A stretch of DNA of 64,000 bases from Acidobacteriota bacterium (GTDB lineage Bacteria > Acidobacteriota > Blastocatellia > Pyrinomonadales > Pyrinomonadaceae), in the NCBI GenBank assembly GCA_003223935.1, contig QHXQ01000051.1, forward strand, positions 1 through 64,000, read 5' to 3'. Below the pieces are notes generated by a model. That model made no database searches. It was not told the DNA's origin and saw nothing but the letters and a program-made list of their open reading frames with translations. The position numbers were made by a program, and so were the translations under genes. Positions 7,588 through 37,243 of the stretch are shown here, in pieces; position 1 is the first letter of the stretch; each line of letters opens with the position of its first letter.

Positions 7588-8475
7588 ATGAGTCAGACTT
7601 TGCGCACAGACCACGACACAGGCGTCTCGCCGTATCTGCTCGTGCTTGGCGCGGCTGTGTTGTGGAGCACAGGCGGGCTGTTCATCAAACTCGGTAAGGC
7701 GGGCGGCCTCTCTGATGCGGAACTCTCTTGCGGGCGCGCACTCTTCTCGGCCGCGACCGTGATGCTCTTGACGCGCCGCGAAGGCTTCGGTCTCAACCGC
7801 GTGACGGCCGCCGCCGCAGTGCTCTACGCGCTGCTGCTCTACCTGTTCGTGCGCGCGACGATGTTGACCACGGCCGCGAACGCGATCTTTTTGCAGTACA
7901 CCGCGCCCGCCTATATTCTCTTGCTCGAACCACTCGTCTATCGTGAGCGTTATCGCGCGCAGGACTTCGCCGTCGTCACTTGCTGTCTCGGCGGGATGAC
8001 GCTCTTTTTCGTCGGCCAACTCCGCCCCGACGATGTGGAAGGCAATCTCACTGCGCTCGGCTCAGGCATCTGCTTTGCGCTCTTTTATCTGCTCTTGCGC
8101 CACCCGCAGGCGCGGCGCATCAATCGCGCCTCGTCGGTCATCTACGGCAATCTGCTGTTGGCATTAGTGACCGCGCCCGCGCTCATCAATGGCGTGGGGC
8201 ATCTGTCGGCGCGCAACATCGAGGTGATGGCATACTTAGGCATCGTGCAGATCGGCATCGCGTACAGCTTGCTCACGCTCGGCATCGCGCGCGGGGTCAA
8301 ATCGCTCGACGCTAGTGTCATCGGCTACATCGAGCCGGTCTTGAATCCCATCTGGGTCTTCATCTTTTTGCGCGAGCAACCGTCGCGCTGGGCGCTACTG
8401 GGCGGCGCGATCATCATCGTCGCCGTCTTCACACACACGCTGTGGAACGCGAGGGCAAGGATGAATGATGAATGA
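7588..8475 (+). CDS. EamA/DMT family transporter
   Basis: About 10 hydrophobic helices, LVLGAAVLWSTGGLFIKLGK and SVIGYIEPVLNPIWVFIFLREQPS motifs. Confidence 0.88.
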   Translation: MSQTLRTDHDTGVSPYLLVLGAAVLWSTGGLFIKLGKAGGLSDAELSCGRALFSAATVMLLTRREGFGLNRVTAAAAVLYALLLYLFVRATMLTTAANAIFLQYTAPAYILLLEPLVYRERYRAQDFAVVTCCLGGMTLFFVGQLRPDDVEGNLTALGSGICFALFYLLLRHPQARRINRASSVIYGNLLLALVTAPALINGVGHLSARNIEVMAYLGIVQIGIAYSLLTLGIARGVKSLDASVIGYIEPVLNPIWVFIFLREQPSRWALLGGAIIIVAVFTHTLWNARARMNDE

Positions 8476-8527
8476 TGAACTGTTTTTTCATTCGGCACTC
8501 ATCATTCATCATCCATCATTTTTTTCC
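8456..8527 (+). terminator. Period-7 (GAATGAT)n inverted repeat followed by T-tract
   Basis: aaggatgaatgatgaatgatga ... tcatcattcatcatcc atcattttttt; EamA stop TGA lies inside left arm. Confidence 0.7.
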
Positions 8528-9475: not shown

Positions 9476-12400
9476 ATGCACATCAAAGACACTCTCCCCG
9501 AACTGTATAAGATTCGCCGGCCGCTGAAAGTAGAGGATGTGCGCAAGCGTTTGGCGGAGAAGCAGGGCAAGGAGTATTGGCGCAGTCTCGAAGAGTTGGC
9601 CGCATCAGACGAGTTCGAGGAGTTGCTGCATCGAGAGTTTCCGCGTCAAGCGGGCGAGTGGGACGACCCCGTAGGGCGGCGCAAGTTTCTGAAGGTCATG
9701 GGCGCGTCGCTGGCGCTCGCGGGGTTATCGGCTTGCGTCTATCAGCCGCCCGAAACCATCGTCCCTTACGTGCGCCAGCCCGAAGAGGAAGTACCGGGCA
9801 AGCCTCTGTTCTTCGCCACCGCGATGCCACACGCGAAGGGCGCGACCGGTCTGCTTGTACGCAGCAACGAAGGTCGCCCGACGCACGTCGAAGGGAACGA
9901 GATGCACCCCGGCAATCTCGGCGCGACCGACATCTTCTCCATCGCTTCAATCCTGACACTCTACGATCCAGACCGCTCGCAGACGATCCAAAATCGCGGC
10001 GACACGCGCCCCTACACAGCCTTCCTCGCAGACGTGCGCACCGCCCTCGACACACTGAAAACCAAACAGGGCGCAGGGCTGCGCTTCTTAACCGAGACCG
10101 TCACGTCGCCCTCGGTCGCGGCGCTGCTCAATCAGATTTTGAAGGCTCTGCCGCAGGCGCGTTGGCACAACTTCGAGCCGGTCGGCGACGGGGCGGCGAT
10201 GGCCGGCGCGCGCCTCGCGTTCGGCCAAGCCGTCAACACCATCTATCGCTTCGACCGCGCCGACCGCGTGCTCGCGCTCGACTCCGATTTTCTTGCCGCC
10301 ACGCCCGGCAACCTACGCTACGCGCGCGACTTCATCGAGAAGCGCCGCGTCCTCGCAGGCAAGGCGGAGATGAACCGGCTCTACGCCGTCGAAACGACGC
10401 CGACGAACACAGGCGCGAAGGCCGATCATCGCTTCGCCGTCAAGCCGAGTGAGTTAGAAACGTTCGCGCGTGCGCTCGCTCCCATGCTCAATGTGAAAGG
10501 CATCACTGCACCGAGCGGCTCTGTGCCGCACGCCGATAAGCTGCAAGCGATTGCCAAAGACCTGCAAAGCGCGCGCGGTAAATCAATCGTGATTCCGGGC
10601 GATTATGCGCCGCCCGTCATTCATGCGCTGGCGCACGCGATGAACGACGCGCTCGGCAACGTCGGGCAAACAGTCGTCTATACCGATCCGATTGCGTTCG
10701 GGCCAAACGATCAGTTGACCGATCAGATCGAAGACTTGCGCGCGCTCGTCAACGACATAGACGCCGGTCAAGTCGAGATGCTGATCATCGTCGGCGGCAA
10801 TCCGGTCTATAACGCGCCGGCCGATTTTCAGTTCCGCGAGCGTTTGAAGAAGCTGAACGAGCAGAAGAAGCTGACCGCGCATTTGGGTCTCCATTTCGAC
10901 GAGACTTCCGAATGGTGTCTGTGGCACGTGCCCGAAGCGCACTTCCTCGAAGCATGGGGCGATGCACGCGCCTACGACGGCACGGTCTCGATCATGCAAC
11001 CGCTCATCGCGCCGCTCTATCGCGGGCGTAGCGCACTCGAATTCTTGACCGCCTTCACCGACACACCCGAAAAGAGCGGCTACGACCTATTGCGCGACTA
11101 CTGGCGCACGCAGCCACAGATGTCCGGCGACTTCGAGCACACTTGGCGACGCGCGGTTCACGACGGCATCATCGCGGGCACGGCGGCGAAAGAGAAGACG
11201 GTCGCGCTCAACACCAACTGGGCGAGTCAGCCCGCAGCCGCGAGCGCGCAGACGACGGGCGGCGGTCAGTTCGAGATCGTCTTTCGTCCAGACCCGTCCA
11301 TCTACGACGGGCGACACGCGAATAACGGCTGGCTGCAAGAGTTGCCGAAGCCTCTGACGAAGTTGTGTTGGGACAACGCGGCGCTCGTCAGCCCAACGAC
11401 CGCGCGGCAACTCTTCAATCTCGGCAGCGAAGAGGCGACTGCGACCTACAAGGGCATCGAGTACATGGCTCCGGTCATCAAGCTGAGCTTTCGCAATCAG
11501 ACGATCAACGCGCCGGTCTTCATCATGGCGGGGCAGCCCGATGGCGTCGTCACGTTGCATCTCGGCTACGGACGCACGCGCGTCGGGCGCGTCGGCGCGG
11601 GCACGACGCAGCAGCCCGTCGGCTTCAACGCCTACGCCTTGCGCTTCGCCGATGCGCCTTGGTACGCCGCAGGCGCAGACGTGAAAACAACCGGCGACAC
11701 GTATCAACTCGTCGGCACGCAACTCCATTTCAATATGGAAGGGCGCGACATCGTCATCTCCAAGACGCTCGACGAGTACCTGCACCACCCGAATGAGAAA
11801 CCGGAGATCGTGCGCGAGGGCGCGAGCACGCAACCCGAAGAAGGGACGACGCGCCCGCTCGGTGAAGGCATCGGCACGGAGAAGCACGAAGAGCCGGGGC
11901 CGAACGACACGCTCTACACAGGTTTCTCTTACAACGGCTACAAATGGGGCATGGTGATTGACACGACCGCGTGCGTCGGTTGCAACTCGTGCATCATCGC
12001 TTGTCAATCGGAGAACAACATTCCGGTCGTCGGCAAAGAACAGGTCGCGCGCCGCCGCGAGATGCACTGGCTCAGAGTTGATGCTTACTTCAAAGGTCTG
12101 GCTGAAAATCCCGATGGTGTTTACTTCATGCCCGTGCCTTGCATGCACTGCGAGAACGCGCCGTGCGAGCCGGTCTGTCCGGTGAACGCGACCGTGCACG
12201 ACGCCGAAGGCACGAACAACATGGTCTATAACCGTTGCGTCGGCACGCGCTATTGCTCGAACAACTGTCCGTACAAGGTGCGCCGCTTCAACTTCCTGCT
12301 CTTCCAAGATTGGACGACGCCCTCTCTGAAGTTGATGCGCAACCCGGAAGTCTCTGTGCGCTCGCGCGGCGTGATGGAGAAATGCACCTACTGCATCCAG

Positions 12401-12658
12401 CGCATCCAGAACGCGAAGATTGATTCGGAGCGCGAGAACGGGCGGCAAGTGCGCGACGGCGAGATCGTCACGGCTTGTCAATCGTCTTGTCCGACCAATG
12501 CGATCATCTTCGGCAACCTAAACGATCAGGCGAGCGGCGTCTCGAAATGGCAACGTGAGCCGCGCAACTACTCTCTGCTCGCGGAACTGAACACGCGCCC
12601 GCGCACGACTTATCTGTCGGCCTTGCGCAACCCGAACCCGGAGATTCAAGGGACTTAA
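9476..12658 (+). CDS. actB: Alternative Complex III subunit ActB (molybdopterin oxidoreductase-like domain fused to Fe-S ferredoxin domain)
   Basis: Tat-like [68 protein letters not shown] cluster motifs. Confidence 0.93.
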
Positions 12659-12661
12659 ATT

Positions 12662-14058
<1,397 letters not shown>

Positions 14059-14062
<4 letters not shown>

Positions 14063-14607
14063 AGCAACGTAAGGAGCGGCCACCGTTCTATGGTTTAATG
14101 GCCGAGTTCGACAATCCGACCGATGTGGTCGCCGCCACGCGCCGCACGTATGAAGCAGGCTACCGGCGCATTGACGCCTTCTCGCCCTATCCGATTGAAG
14201 AGTTGTCGGAGGCGCTCGGTGCGTTCGGTGTGAAGATGCCGCGCATCGTGCTCGCGGGCGGCATCTTCGGTCTCGTCGGCGGCTTTATGATGCAATGGTA
14301 TCTGTCGGTCATTAACTACCCTTTGAACATCGGCGGCAAGCCCTTGAATAGTTGGCCGGCGTTTATTCCGATCACGTTTGAGGTGACCGTTTTGTGTGCC
14401 GCGCTCGCAGGGATTCTCGGCATGCTCGCCCTAAACGGTCTGCCTGAACCTTATCATCCGGTCTTCAACACGCCGAACTTCGCGCTCGCCTCGCGCGACC
14501 GCTTCTTCCTGCTGGTAGAAGCGCGCGACGCTAAATTTGATCACGCACAGACGGCGGAGTTCTTGCGCAGCTTGGGGCCGCGAGAGGTGACAGATGTGGA
14601 ATATTGA
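14059..14607 (+). CDS. actD: Alternative Complex III subunit ActD (DUF3341)
   Basis: FYGLMAEFDNPTDVVAATRRTYEAGYRRIDAFSPYPIEEL; ATGA overlap with actC. Confidence 0.92.
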
Positions 14608-15457
14608 GAAAAGCAGAAGGCAGAAGGCAGTAGGCAGAAAGCAGAAGGCGGAAAGCGGCCGGCCGTTATGGCTCGCGCGCCGCCCCGTTGTTATCTGCTT
14701 ACTGCTTACCGCTTTCTGCCTACTGCCTTCTGCTTGCCGGCAAGACATGCAGGATCAGCCGCGCTACAACGCTTATCGGGCGAGCACGACGTTCAGCGAT
14801 GGCGCGTCGGCGCGACCTTTGGTCGAGGGTACGATCCCGCGCGGTTGGTTGCGCGAGGACGAGTTGTACTACACGGGCAAGATGAGCGGCGCGCAAGCGC
14901 GCGCACAAGCCGGCGCAACAAGCACGGCGCAAGCGACCACACCGAACATGCAGGGCAACACGAGCAGCCAACCTTCGGGCGGCAGTGTCACGAATGTGAG
15001 CGGTAACAATGCGGGCGGCAATCTGGGGACGCAACAGGGCGGGCCGGGCAACGCGGCGGCGCAGCAGGACGCGACCATGTTTCCGTTTCCTATCACTCAA
15101 GATGTACTGACGCGCGGGCAGCAGCGTTACAACATCTATTGCTCGATGTGTCATGGCATGACCGGCTATGGCGACGGCATGATCGTGCGGCGCGGTTTTC
15201 GTCGGCCGCCTTCATATCACGATGAGCGTCTGCGCGCTGCGCCGGTCGGCCACTTCTTCGACGTAATCACGAACGGCTGGGGCGCGATGCCCGACTACGC
15301 GGCACAGATTCCGGTGCAGGATCGTTGGGCGATCATCGCTTACGTGCGCGCGCTGCAACTGAGCCAGCAGGTGAACAAGAGCGAAGTGCCGCCGGAGAAG
15401 TTGAATCAACCGCAGGGCGGTGGCGGTCAGACCGAAGGCGGAGGTGAGCGACACTGA
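14594..15457 (+). CDS. actE: Alternative Complex III subunit ActE, monoheme cytochrome c lipoprotein
   Basis: CRQDMQDQPRYNAYRAS, YCSMCHGMTGYGDGM heme motif; overlaps actD stop. Confidence 0.9.
   Translation: MWNIEKSRRQKAVGRKQKAESGRPLWLARRPVVICLLLTAFCLLPSACRQDMQDQPRYNAYRASTTFSDGASARPLVEGTIPRGWLREDELYYTGKMSGAQARAQAGATSTAQATTPNMQGNTSSQPSGGSVTNVSGNNAGGNLGTQQGGPGNAAAQQDATMFPFPITQDVLTRGQQRYNIYCSMCHGMTGYGDGMIVRRGFRRPPSYHDERLRAAPVGHFFDVITNGWGAMPDYAAQIPVQDRWAIIAYVRALQLSQQVNKSEVPPEKLNQPQGGGGQTEGGGERH
14611..14735. repeat. Period-7 GCAGAAG-type inverted repeat within the actE 5' coding region
   Basis: Left arm gcagaaggcagaaggcagtaggcagaaagcagaaggcggaaagc, right arm ctgcttactgcttaccgctttctgcctactgccttctgc; 23-nt exact complement gctttctgcctactgccttctgc. 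Confidence 0.85.
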
Positions 15458-16749
15458 TGGCAGCACACGCAGCACACGTGACAGACGCACGCAGCTACAC
15501 GCCGCCCGCCGCGCTTGACAGGTTGGCGGGCACGAGCCTACTCGTCGGTCTCGCCGGTCTCATCTTGCTCGTCATCGGCGGCGCTCTGAGCGCGCTCCAC
15601 GTGTTGCCCTTCGATCTGTCACACGCTTTCCGCGCTTACTTGCTCGGCTACGTCTTTTGGACGGGCATCTCGGTCGGCTCGATGGCGATCATGATGCTGC
15701 ACCACCTGTCGGGCGGCGGTTGGGGCGTCGTGCTGCGGCGCATCTTTGAAGCGGCGACGCGCGTGCTGCCGCTCATGTTCGTGCTGTTCATCCCCATCGC
15801 GCTCGGCATGTACTTCAGTAAATTGTATCCATGGACAATGCCGCAAGTCGTAGCGGAGAGCCACGCGGTCGCGCACAAACATGCGCTCTATCTCAACGCG
15901 CCGTTGTTTCTGCTCCGTTGGGTCTTCTACTTCGCCGTCTGGATCGGGCTGACAGTTCTGCTGAACAAGTGGTCGCTCGAACAGGACACGACGACCGACC
16001 CGCGTCTGCGTCGTTTGTTGAAGGATCGCATGCAGAACGTGAGCGGCCCCGGCATCGTCTTGTTCGGTTTGACCGTGACGTTCGCCGCGATTGATTGGTT
16101 GATGACGCTTGAGCCTGAATGGTTCTCGACCATCTGGGGTTTGCTCATCATGGTGGGTTGGGGCTTGACGGCGCTTGCGTTCGCCATCTGCATCGAGTCT
16201 TACTTCGTCTTAAACAACGCGCGTCTGGGCGAGGTCTATCAACCGCGCCACCTGCACGATCACGGCAAACTGCTGCTCGCCTTCGTGATGATCTGGGCTT
16301 ACTTCTCGCTCTCGCAGTTCTTGATCATCTGGTCGGGCAATCTGCCGGAAGAGATCACTTGGTATCTGCACCGCTTGCGGAGCGGCTGGCAATACGTGGC
16401 GCTCTTCGTCGTGCTGTTCCACTTCGCGCTGCCGTTCGTCATCTTGCTGTCGGCGAACCTGAAGAAGCGTGCGGGCCAACTGATCTTGGTCGCGCTGCTC
16501 GTCTTGGGTGCGCGCATCATCGATCTGTTCTGGTTGATCGCGCCGACCCACATCGTCTTTCCCGGCGCGCAGGGAGCGACGGCGGGCGCGGCGCGCGTCA
16601 TCGCTTACGCGCTCTACTTCATCGCGCCCTTCGGCGTCGGCGGCGTGTGGCTCTGGTACTTCGCGCGCCAACTAAAGACGCGCCCGCTCTTGCCGCTCGG
16701 CGATGAAGGATTAGAGAACGCGCTCGAACAAATACATGGACATCATTGA
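15457..16749 (+). CDS. actF: Alternative Complex III subunit ActF (quinol:cytochrome c oxidoreductase membrane subunit)
   Basis: NrfD-like multi-TM protein directly after actE. Confidence 0.9.
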   Translation: MAAHAAHVTDARSYTPPAALDRLAGTSLLVGLAGLILLVIGGALSALHVLPFDLSHAFRAYLLGYVFWTGISVGSMAIMMLHHLSGGGWGVVLRRIFEAATRVLPLMFVLFIPIALGMYFSKLYPWTMPQVVAESHAVAHKHALYLNAPLFLLRWVFYFAVWIGLTVLLNKWSLEQDTTTDPRLRRLLKDRMQNVSGPGIVLFGLTVTFAAIDWLMTLEPEWFSTIWGLLIMVGWGLTALAFAICIESYFVLNNARLGEVYQPRHLHDHGKLLLAFVMIWAYFSLSQFLIIWSGNLPEEITWYLHRLRSGWQYVALFVVLFHFALPFVILLSANLKKRAGQLILVALLVLGARIIDLFWLIAPTHIVFPGAQGATAGAARVIAYALYFIAPFGVGGVWLWYFARQLKTRPLLPLGDEGLENALEQIHGHH

Positions 16750-16822: not shown

Positions 16823-17413
16823 ATGGCAGTCTTTGGACGAAAAGTGCATGTGACGGAGACGCCGGACGTGCGACACATCACGAACCCGGACGTGATGCAC
16901 GAAGAGTCGGACGTGAGCGTCAAGGGCGTCGCGTTGTTTGTCTTCGGACTAGGCGTCTTCGGCCTCATCACGTGCGGGGTGATATACGCCCTGTTTTGGT
17001 ATTTCGATGTGCGCGAGACGCATAAAGCGGAGAAAGAGTTTCATAGCCCGATGGCGCGCCTGCCGGAAGAACGCCAACCACCGGCCGGCATTCCGCACTT
17101 GCAAGGCGCGCCCGGCGACCGTGCGCTCGACGCGCCCGACACGAAAGACCCGCGCTACGATCTGCAATTGAAACCGCCCGACGAGGAGGGGAAACTGCTG
17201 CGCCAAAAATACGATTGGGATTTAACGCACTACGGTCAGCCCGATCCATCCACAGGCATGGTGCGCGTGCCGATAGATGATGCGATGCAGCGGCTCTTGC
17301 AAAAGGGCTTGCCTGCGCGACCGGCGCAGCCCGGCGACCCATCCGTCATCGGCGGCATGGATGTGCCTTCATATGCGAGCGCAGGGCGACAGACGGAGAA
17401 GCGGGATCAGTAG
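16823..17413 (+). CDS. Uncharacterised single-TM protein in ACIII-caa3 operon
   Basis: One TM (VKGVALFVFGLGVFGLITCGVIYALFWYF) plus ..KLLRQKYDWDLTHYGQPDPSTGMVRVPIDDAMQRLLQKGLPAR; SD gaggtgaatttgag. Confidence 0.8.
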   Translation: MAVFGRKVHVTETPDVRHITNPDVMHEESDVSVKGVALFVFGLGVFGLITCGVIYALFWYFDVRETHKAEKEFHSPMARLPEERQPPAGIPHLQGAPGDRALDAPDTKDPRYDLQLKPPDEEGKLLRQKYDWDLTHYGQPDPSTGMVRVPIDDAMQRLLQKGLPARPAQPGDPSVIGGMDVPSYASAGRQTEKRDQ

Positions 17414-17545
17414 GCAGAAAGCAGAAGGCAGAAAACAGATGATGATTGGCCGGCGCGACAGCAACAAGAATAGGTGGGCAAGCAGGCGCTGCCTACTGCC
17501 TACTGCCTATTGCCTACTGCTTTTGGCCTACTGCCTGCTGCCTAC
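17409..17545. repeat. Period-7 GCAGTAG/CTGCCTA inverted repeat across the orf16823-sco1 junction
   Basis: Left arm cagtaggcagaaagcagaaggcagaaaacag, right arm ctgcctactgcctactgcctattgcctactgcttttggcctactgcctgctgcctactg. Confidence 0.85.
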
Positions 17546-18359
17546 TGTTGTTCATGCACAGTACGCGCAGCCGCCGGTGCGGACGGCGACGACGAGCAGC
17601 GCCGCCGCGCCGATCTTGAAGGACATACGCATCGAGCAACATCTGGGTGGACAACTGCCTCTGGATGCGACGTTCCAAGACGAAGCGGGACAGACGGTCA
17701 AGCTCGGCGATTATTTTAATCGGCAGCGACCCGTCGTCGTCGCGCTCGTCTATTACAACTGCCCGATGTTGTGCAATCAAATCTTGGCCGGTCTGATCGG
17801 GAGTCTGCGCGACGTGCACCTCGATCCCGGGCGCGATTTCGATGTGGTCGTCGTCAGCTTCGACGCGCGCGAAGGGCCACAAGACGCGCAGAAGAAAAAG
17901 AAACTCGTCATGGGCGATTATCGCCGCCCCGAGACGGCCGCCGGTTGGCATTTTCTGACGGGCGAGAAAAGTTCGATTGATGCGGTCGCGGATGCTATCG
18001 GTTTTCGCTACGCCTTCGACGCGCAGACCAATCAGTTCGCGCATGCGAGCGGCATCATGGTCGCGACGCCGCAAGGAAAGTTGTCGCACTATTTTTACGG
18101 CATTGAGTATCAGCCGAAAGATTTGCGGCTCGGCTTGGTCGAAGCGTCCGCAAATAAGATCGGCTCGGCCGTAGATCAATTGCTGCTCTATTGCTACCAC
18201 TACGACCCGGAGACGGGCCGCTACGGCCCCACGATCATGAACATCCTGCGGCTCGCCGGCATCGTCACCGTATTTGCGCTCGTGGCTTTAATCCTGTGCT
18301 TGCGCCGCTACAAGCCGCGCCCGCAAGACGCGGCCGCAGCAGGAGGGACGACCCTTTAA
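17439..18359 (+). CDS. SCO1/SenC family copper chaperone
   Basis: YYNCPMLCNQILAGL (CPxxC), DFDVVVVSFDAREGP, conserved FAHASGIMVATPQGKLSHYFYG; start placed at in-frame ATG 17439. Confidence 0.9.
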   Translation: MMIGRRDSNKNRWASRRCLLPTAYCLLLLAYCLLPTVVHAQYAQPPVRTATTSSAAAPILKDIRIEQHLGGQLPLDATFQDEAGQTVKLGDYFNRQRPVVVALVYYNCPMLCNQILAGLIGSLRDVHLDPGRDFDVVVVSFDAREGPQDAQKKKKLVMGDYRRPETAAGWHFLTGEKSSIDAVADAIGFRYAFDAQTNQFAHASGIMVATPQGKLSHYFYGIEYQPKDLRLGLVEASANKIGSAVDQLLLYCYHYDPETGRYGPTIMNILRLAGIVTVFALVALILCLRRYKPRPQDAAAAGGTTL

Positions 18360-24439: not shown

Positions 24440-24550
24440 GTTTGATATTGGTTATTGGTTATTTGCCTCTGCTTGGCAAGGCTATAGACACAGGCGCGGG
24501 CCGTTTAACTGAGGAACAAATATCCAAAACCCAATATCCAATATCCAATC
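24440..24550. repeat. Period-7 ATATTGG/CCAATAT inverted repeat
   Basis: gatattggttattggttatt ... aatatccaaaacccaatatccaatatccaatc. Confidence 0.65.
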
Positions 24551-24837: not shown

Positions 24838-24912
24838 GATGAATGCGGAATGATGAATGATGAATCAAGAACAACCGCTTGTTGATTCATCATTCATCAT
24901 TCCGCATTCATC
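24838..24912. repeat. Perfect 31-bp inverted repeat with period-7 arms
   Basis: gatgaatgcggaatgatgaatgatgaatcaa (24838-24868) / ttgattcatcattcatcattccgcattcatc (24882-24912), 13-nt loop. Confidence 0.95.
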
Positions 24913-24923
24913 ATTAACTTCTG

Positions 24924-26564: not shown

Positions 26565-27941
26565 ATGAAACGCATTCTTGTGGTTGACGACGACCGCGCC
26601 TCGTGCGAGTTGCTGCGCGAAATCTTCGCCGATCAAGGTTGGACGACGGAGACGGCGCAGACGCCGGAGCGTGCGTTGGCGCTCGCCAGCGCGACGCAGT
26701 TCGATCTGGTTGTCAGCGACGTGAACCTCGAAGCCGAGCAGACGGGTCTCGATCTGTTGCGCGTTTTGCGCGAGCGCTGTCCGGTCATCCTTGTGACCGG
26801 CTTCGGCACGCTCAGCGCGGCGGTCGAAGCGGCGCGCGAGGGCGCTTGGGATTTCATCTCGAAGCCGTTCAAGGTTGAAGAGGTGATCGCCACGGCGCGG
26901 CGCGCGATGGAGGCGCACGAAGCGAGCGGCGCAGACGCGAGCGCGCCCGCCGAACTCACAGCGCGCTACGAAGAGTCGGGGCTGACGGGGCGCGCGCCCG
27001 CGATGATCGAACTCTACAAAGAGATCGCGCGCGTCGCGCCGTCGCGCTCGACCGTGCTGGTCGTCGGCGAGTCGGGCACGGGCAAGGAATTGGTCGCGCG
27101 GGCAATTCACAAACACAGCACGCGCGCCGACAGTCCGTTCGTGCCGGTCAACTGCGGCGCGCTCACAGAGACGCTGCTTGAAGCCGAACTGTTCGGGCAT
27201 GTGCGCGGCTCGTTCACCGGCGCGCATGCGGATCGCAAAGGGCTGTGGGAAGAAGCCGAAGGCGGCACGCTCTTCCTAGACGAGATCGGCGAGACCAGTC
27301 CCGCGATGCAAGTGAAACTTTTGCGCGCGCTGCAAGAGGGCGAGATTCGCCGCGTCGGCGCGACGCGCACGATCAGTGTGGACGCGCGCGTCGTCGCTGC
27401 GACCAATCGCGATCTCGAAAAAGATGTCAAGACCGGCAAGTTCCGCGAAGATTTGTTCTATCGGCTGAGCGTCGTCACGCTTTATGTGCCGCCGTTGCGC
27501 GAGCGACGCGGCGACATTCCGCTCCTTGCCGAGCGTTTCCTGCGCGCGGCCGCCACGAGCGCCGGTCGAACTTTGCGCTTCGCGCAAGGGACGCTCGCCG
27601 TGCTCGCCGCTTATGACTGGCCGGGCAACGTGCGCGAACTCGAATCGGCGATTGAGTACGCGGCGCTGCACGCACGCGGCACTGAGGTCGCGCCCGAAGA
27701 TTTGCCGGCCAAGCTGCAAACCTTCGAGGCGCGCGCACGCGCCGCCGCCGGCCCATCATCTTTGACTACGCTCTACGCCGACCTGCCTCCGCTCGACGAA
27801 CTAGAGCGCCGCTATCTGCTCTACGTCCTCGAACAAGTTCACGGCAACCGCACACGCGCCGCCGAAGTCCTCAAGATAGATCGCCGCACACTCTACCGCA
27901 TGGCCGAACGGTTCGGCGTGCAACTGGATAGTGAGCAGTAA
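26565..27941 (+). CDS. Sigma54-dependent response regulator (NtrC family)
   Basis: REC domain, GESGTGKELVARAIH, GSFTGA, Fis-like C-term NRTRAAEVLKIDRRTLYRMAERFG. Confidence 0.93.
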   Translation: MKRILVVDDDRASCELLREIFADQGWTTETAQTPERALALASATQFDLVVSDVNLEAEQTGLDLLRVLRERCPVILVTGFGTLSAAVEAAREGAWDFISKPFKVEEVIATARRAMEAHEASGADASAPAELTARYEESGLTGRAPAMIELYKEIARVAPSRSTVLVVGESGTGKELVARAIHKHSTRADSPFVPVNCGALTETLLEAELFGHVRGSFTGAHADRKGLWEEAEGGTLFLDEIGETSPAMQVKLLRALQEGEIRRVGATRTISVDARVVAATNRDLEKDVKTGKFREDLFYRLSVVTLYVPPLRERRGDIPLLAERFLRAAATSAGRTLRFAQGTLAVLAAYDWPGNVRELESAIEYAALHARGTEVAPEDLPAKLQTFEARARAAAGPSSLTTLYADLPPLDELERRYLLYVLEQVHGNRTRAAEVLKIDRRTLYRMAERFGVQLDSEQ

Positions 27942-27985
27942 GCAGTGAGCAGCAAGAACAGTTTGTCACTGCTTACTGCTTACCA
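27932..27985. repeat. Period-7 GCAGTAA/TTACTGC inverted repeat between convergent genes
   Basis: gtgagcagtaagcagtgagcag ... cactgcttactgcttac; NtrC stop TAA lies inside left arm. Confidence 0.8.
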
Positions 27986-27989
27986 TCTG

Positions 27990-36909: not shown

Positions 36910-36992
36910 TCGCACTGTTCGCTTGTGAAGCACCTGAGCAACTCCGAATAAAGCTATACCGGATTGCAACCCAACATAAGGTAAAAGGAATT

Positions 36993-37060
36993 AACCACGA
37001 AATCACACGAACTGACAGACACAAAGGTTCGTGCTAGTCGCTTCGTGTGGTTTCGTGGTT
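36993..37060 (+). terminator. Inverted repeat downstream of ppc
   Basis: aaccacgaaatcacacgaa / ttcgtgtggtttcgtggtt, 19-bp stem with one G-U, then catctttctt. Confidence 0.6.
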
Positions 37061-37243
37061 CATCTTTCTTGTATTACGGCATGGGCCGTCGCTCAGGTTG
37101 AAACGAAATGGCCGCGATTAGCGTCCAATCAAGCGCAGCGTTTTTTTTTCGCGCCGGCAGCGCATTATCTGTAAACCTGACGGGCGGGTTCGGCGTATAG
37201 ACCTGCGACTGATAGTCACGCCTTACTGGGCTTAAATCGCGTC

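Follow-up and report, generated by a model that had tools for sequence, protein, structure and literature searches.

The window, that is, the whole 64,000-nucleotide stretch of DNA that was analysed, carries a SCO1/SenC gene at 17439..18359 (plus strand; Pfam E 1.5e-5, with a PDB Sco1 match) in an operon with genes for alternative complex III and a caa3-type oxidase. Upstream lie a molybdopterin/iron-sulphur ActB-like gene (9476-12658), an NrfD-like ActC (12662-14062), ActD (14059..14607, plus strand; PF11821), an ActE-like monohaem cytochrome c subunit of alternative complex III (14594..15457, plus strand; PDB 8k9e_E, 6f0k_E, and 6btm_E), an ActF-like gene (15457-16749), and, directly before SCO1, a small-subunit ORF (16823-17413). 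COX2 follows from 18363. The names ActB-like and ActF-like were taken from operon order and length.

The first 40 SCO1 codons cross a hairpin of 140 bp in total (17408-17547). Its left arm (17408..17438, plus strand) is made of basic, purine-rich (GGCAGWA)-type heptamers and contains the TAG stop codon of the upstream ORF (17411..17413, plus strand). After a 50-nt loop, the right arm, (CTGCCTA)n (17489..17547, plus strand), codes for the hydrophobic core CLLPTAYCLLLLAYCLLPT. From ATG 17439, the presumed start, the N-terminal peptide reads MMIGRRDSNKNRWASRRCLLPTAYCLLLLAYCLLPTVVHA and continues as QYAQPP. The predicted signal peptide comprises 40 codons (17439..17558, plus strand), from this ATG to VHA, with probable cleavage before Q41. 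The sequence-only reading had proposed that heptamer repeats encode the SCO1 N-terminus and that (CTGCCTA)n, as the complement of the left arm, gives a hydrophobic LLPTAYC readout. Both proposals were borne out by the sequence and by the frame read from ATG 17439.

SCO1 had been presented there as a second case, and the first case is real as well. A heptamer hairpin of the same class (14611..14735, plus strand) lies over the signal-peptide codons of ActE, about 2.8 kb upstream of the SCO1 hairpin and with the same architecture. The predicted ActE lipoprotein signal peptide spans 47 codons (14594..14734, plus strand), in which the left arm forms the n-region and the right arm forms the hydrophobic core. 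A Cys codon in the lipobox position (14735..14737, plus strand) is conserved in orthologs with and without the repeat; the lipobox in this genome is LPSAC, with an unusual Pro at -3. ActD and the start of ActE share 14 nt, and the hairpin starts 4 nt past the ActD stop codon (14605-14607). Because the ActE start codon precedes this stop codon, the whole hairpin falls within ActE.

Seven is not divisible by 3, so an arm of heptamers gives the same heptapeptide, rotated, in every frame. The right arms (CTGCCTA)n, (CTGCCTT)n, and (CTTTTGC)n read LLPTAYC, LLPSAFC, and LLPFAFC, respectively, all hydrophobic and stop-free. The complementary arms (GGCAGAA)n and (GCAAAAG)n read EGRRQKA and AKGKRQK, both basic and open, and an arm of (GGCAGTA)n has one stop per 21 nt. 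In the window's own genome (G000), the consensus readout is LLP[TS]A[YF]C for the right arm and [E/V]G[RS][RK]QKA for the left arm, which is basic if the unit is GGCAGAA. With a basic, open left arm complementary to a hydrophobic, stop-free right arm, the whole hairpin therefore reads basic and then hydrophobic. CAGTGGT and CAGAGGT are other abundant classes in this genome; their right arm has stops, so no entry is possible. The features expected of a Sec or lipoprotein signal peptide are predicted at the captured genes: a basic n-region, a hydrophobic h-region, a cleavage motif or lipobox Cys, and then a conserved mature start. Repeat-encoded and ordinary signal peptides are of similar hydrophobicity (12-aa KD, 2.6 versus 2.9), and the n-regions of the former are longer and more basic.

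The own-genome sample consisted of 2.44 Mb of stretches plus the window, giving 2.51 Mb. Both arms were 7-nt periodic in 396 of 885 inverted repeats, whereas lag 8 gave 2 and lags 4, 5, 6, 9, and 10 gave none; the heptamer periodicity is not chance. There were 173 heptamer hairpins in this sample, 169 of which lay outside gene cores as drawn by a simple codon-statistics caller, though these cores make up 75% of the DNA. For 105 co-directional gene pairs, the median distance between the upstream stop codon and the start of the element was 1 nt, and 81% of elements started within -25..+15 nt. Elements in convergent pairs lay near both stops, and those in divergent pairs were without anchoring. 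ActE and SCO1 would have been entered so often because hairpins anchor at stop codons: the ActE start and the ActD stop overlap in every ortholog read, as do the SCO1 start and the upstream stop (CAATGA) in several.

More inverted repeats are present in the window (8460-8517, 24444-24538, 24838-24912, 27927-27987, and 36990-37063), several of the AATGATG or GCAGTAA heptamer type. In a related genome (L338, G033:C234), a right-arm array of ~15 CTGCCTA-type units stands behind a short left arm, with no obvious gene. An exact-pattern 19-mer scan of genome contigs gave many phyla among the matches listed, often as lag-21 coding repeats, and was left out of taxonomic inference.

A GGCAG-class arm stands at the 5' end of 22 genes in this genome. 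Five have no start codon after the arm, and all five are predicted exported proteins (YCF48-like, SurA-like, PIG-L with NEW3, ActE, and SCO1). In contrast, 15 of the 17 with a start after the arm are cytosolic (PurA, RuvB, TruA, RibH, PGI, a sigma factor, and others), the remaining 2 being a membrane kinase and a CarboxypepD_reg protein. This export bias is significant (Fisher p 0.0008), where captured genes are by construction without stop-bearing heptamers; the test omitted L232 (19257; MKKFLPVACCLLLSMLCASVSVQAQ), a gene whose weak heptamer run could represent an ordinary signal peptide. The bias contradicts the possibility, raised with the original claim, that LLPTAYC peptides are merely random start mis-annotations.

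Besides ActE and SCO1, the captured genes are thus YCF48-like (L194), SurA-like (L151), and PIG-L (L287), the last two with the right, hydrophobic arm only. The SCO1 N-terminus also matched an SBP_bac_5 lipoprotein (L332, G037) and an fn3 lipoprotein (L331, G007) in relatives. A SurA-like gene (L333, G029) is the apparent counterpart of L151, giving the same pattern in two genera. A further match, the long ORF L334, has no family assignment and is possibly antisense. Captures are the exception: most hairpins in the window's genome are plain intergenic elements.

SCO1 orthologs were examined at 50 loci (30 plus 20 more), and a heptamer hairpin covered the signal-peptide codons at 16 of them (12 of 44 by script and 4 by eye). 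With classes assigned by eye, the unit was GGCAG in G012, G028, G052, and G007; AAAAGGC in G010, G015, and G044; GAGCAGT in G001, G002, and G034; and GAGCAGA in G006. Repeat-free orthologs have a conventional signal peptide at the same place, for example, MKKSSAIHAVLKLKLFAVLVLLLIFTNASA followed by QR. In one ortholog (L307, G049), the N-terminus spans a non-heptameric inverted repeat (CACAGAGGCACAGAAG ... CTCCGTGTCTCCGTGCCTCTGTGGC). Hairpins in signal-peptide codons were commoner at ActE (at least 12 of 19 informative loci), where the units include GAGCAGA, GCAGAAG, AAAAGGC, GGGAAAG, AAAAAGG, GGGGAGAC, and AAAAGGGG. The ActE repeat is always followed by the conserved Cys and [RQ]..DMQ[DN]QP, and four ActE orthologs have a short ordinary lipoprotein signal peptide with the same terminal Cys. 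At both genes, other genera carry differing heptamers in the same codons, and the mature start is conserved.

The tree built from 47 SCO1 mature domains implies a minimum of 4 changes in hairpin presence and of 11 in heptamer class. The sequence-only reading had taken two captures in one operon as a sign of a recurrent, independent mechanism. Recurrence holds, and more strongly than that reading supposed. Independent capture holds for the heptamer class, which turned over repeatedly, and is less sure for hairpin presence, which clusters on the tree, so that a few ancient insertions whose class changed later explain the pattern as well as many insertions do. Hairpin presence may be old at some nodes, but the resident repeat family has repeatedly overwritten the signal-peptide sequence. 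The congeneric pairs G044/G052, G010/G034, and G002/G029 differ in SCO1 class; pairwise alignments of congeners matched over the tail of the upstream gene and over the mature codons, with the hairpin codons between them replaced. These alignments at SCO1 showed replacement and no clean empty site of the kind expected for a MITE. Three classes were tested for abundance, and in 11 of 15 genomes the one at SCO1 was also the commonest (permutation p 0.014). In G010, a GGCAG-type right arm persists behind the AAAAGGC arm, which looks like layering of successive elements with the AAAAGGC arm the newer. Heptamer-class abundance among the related genomes G000..G059 ranges from 0 to over 500 sites; therefore, repeat families seem to rise and fall quickly.

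An explanation can be proposed for these features. The SCO1 feature would be one copy of a dispersed, non-autonomous hairpin repeat with a left arm of (GGCAGWA)n and a complementary right arm of (CTGCCTW)n. In this genome such hairpins lie just past stop codons, and where the next gene overlaps or abuts that stop codon, the hairpin would come to lie in its first codons. Entering from any side, it would supply the n-region and then the h-region of a Sec signal peptide, and the host gene would need to supply only the cleavage site or lipobox. A hairpin would survive only in genes for exported proteins and only with a hydrophobic heptamer free of stops. Selection would purge hairpins from other coding DNA and tolerate or keep them at the starts of exported proteins, and resident heptamer families would overwrite each other at the same site.

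Considering the observed sequence, positions, frame property, ortholog pattern, and export bias, from which we infer export function, insertion order, and selection, stop-codon-anchored hairpins spilling into overlapping downstream genes are probably the best explanation of the repeat-encoded predicted signal peptides. Start codons, cleavage, and export at the captured genes are predicted from sequence and orthologs. Selection rather than chance likely holds the hairpins in signal-peptide codons, as indicated by the class at the site and the export bias. A bolder version, in which a stop-codon-targeted hairpin system continually rewrites signal peptides, the arms serve as a portable export cassette, and families replace each other in situ, is offered tentatively and may well be wrong.

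The sequence tolerance of signal peptides is known. Under pure neutral tolerance, entry would be no more frequent than in intergenic DNA, and hairpins would persist since signal peptides tolerate almost any hydrophobic sequence. By a rough estimate, about 5-7 captures among 173-234 repeat loci are near the number expected from how few signal-peptide codons there are relative to intergenic DNA, as this reading would have it. However, hairpins occupy SCO1 and ActE in a large proportion of genera, one that greatly exceeds the proportion of exported genes hit within one genome, and the class at the site matches the resident family. Neutral tolerance is conceivable, if rather doubtful.

Alternatively, the hairpin could be kept as RNA, for translational coupling or as a regulatory structure in the operon, with signal-peptide coding as a by-product. 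The RNA of the SCO1 and ActE hairpin segments folds better than shuffles (z -2.3 and -5.1, respectively), the elements are anchored between stop and start, and pairing is preserved while heptamers change. In addition, a Shine-Dalgarno (SD) motif of 4 nt or more at the normal place was found in 0 of 63 genes with a hairpin ending <=12 nt before the ATG, compared with 50% elsewhere. SD-like motifs were about threefold commoner just 5' of the hairpin in these 63 genes, whose hairpins begin at the upstream stop. The hairpin may bridge the stop/SD and the AUG; an example is the hairpin at 24838-24912 of the window, upstream of a gene starting near 24920. Many hairpins are followed by CTTTTATG, with the next start codon directly behind, the U-run of an intrinsic terminator being a mark of transcript ends. 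Against a role as RNA, hairpin-free SCO1 and ActE orthologs occur in the same operon, and some captured genes (L151 and L287) keep the right arm only. An RNA function with coding as a by-product is unlikely, though far from negligible.

The repeat could also be a 5' leader, with SCO1 and ActE beginning downstream and their starts mis-annotated. The arms are stop-free, so ORFs behind a hairpin extend into it mechanically, and 17 of the 22 genes behind a GGCAG-class arm do begin after it. However, no ATG occurs between the SCO1 repeat and the conserved core, and the sole later ATG in ActE (DMQDQ) would remove the conserved lipobox Cys. In more than 30 orthologs, with or without repeats, a predicted signal peptide leads to the same conserved mature start of SCO1, which goes against the idea that SCO1 begins after the repeat. 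A start after the repeat would lose the signal peptide or lipobox of the repeat-free orthologs at both genes, and mis-annotation was rejected as very improbable. Least probable of all is a REP-like element mobilised by a RAYT/Y1 transposase: the elements are palindromic, dispersed, and intergenic, and Y1_Tnp proteins occur in most of these genomes, but these proteins do not correlate with hairpin abundance (zero matches in G034, the genome richest in GGCAG sites with 537, and in G010, which has AAAAGGC elements), no head tetranucleotide was noted, and the heptamer classes are many.

With capture of stop-codon-anchored hairpins as the preferred explanation, the source of these signal peptides could be read directly: repeat DNA with a unit length such that the reading frame does not matter. 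Such capture would provide a concrete route from non-coding hairpins to functional N-termini of essential-type proteins, namely, alternative complex III and its copper chaperone, and would account for LLPTAYC and LLPSAFC N-termini otherwise dismissible as annotation errors. Why heptamer hairpins anchor at stop codons is a second question, one that can be approached directly from genome data.

No paper was found in a literature search with the peptide strings LLPTAYC, LLPSAFC, and GGCAGTAGGC, and searches on repeat-encoded signal peptides returned only the work of Delihas (2007; PMC2759123). The papers searched describe no case in which a heptamer hairpin, readable in any frame, serves as the signal peptide of conserved respiratory genes and changes class between congeners. 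Heptanucleotide repeats are known as cyanobacterial STRRs, as G-rich heptamers in Xanthomonas and Nostoc (PMC4692102), and as TAACTGA in Beggiatoaceae (PMC4679880), the last of which overlap upstream stop codons. The elements described here are likewise tandem 7-nt units, dispersed and intergenic, near stops or starts and often without an SD. In contrast, the known repeats are direct arrays, mostly non-hairpin, and a signal-peptide role is not described in the parts of these sources consulted.

The Rickettsia palindromic element (RPE; Ogata et al. 2000, reviewed in PMC2229807) is likewise a palindrome with a stem-loop RNA that is translated in frame within conserved genes, as the SCO1 and ActE hairpins are. 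However, RPEs consist of long unique sequence and occur at varying positions within proteins, whereas the elements here are frame-independent tandem heptamers at N-terminal signal peptides only. Membership of the RPE family is also contradicted by the heptamer arms, by the different phylum indicated by the SCO1 and ActE relatives, and by the location of nearly all hairpins outside gene cores. Palindromic amphipathic repeat coding elements (PARCELs; PMC2996958) are also palindromic DNA coding for repeat peptides in membrane-targeted proteins, but they form 25-residue amphipathic repeats within ORFs and are neither signal peptides nor heptamers. A further parallel is the Yersinia RU-2/YPAL MITE at YPO1552 (Delihas 2007; PMC2759123), a small mobile palindrome that likewise provides part of a predicted signal peptide, namely its start. 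That case is one locus in an unstudied protein, whereas the hairpins described here lie in several conserved genes of known role, in many genera, and belong to several repeat families.
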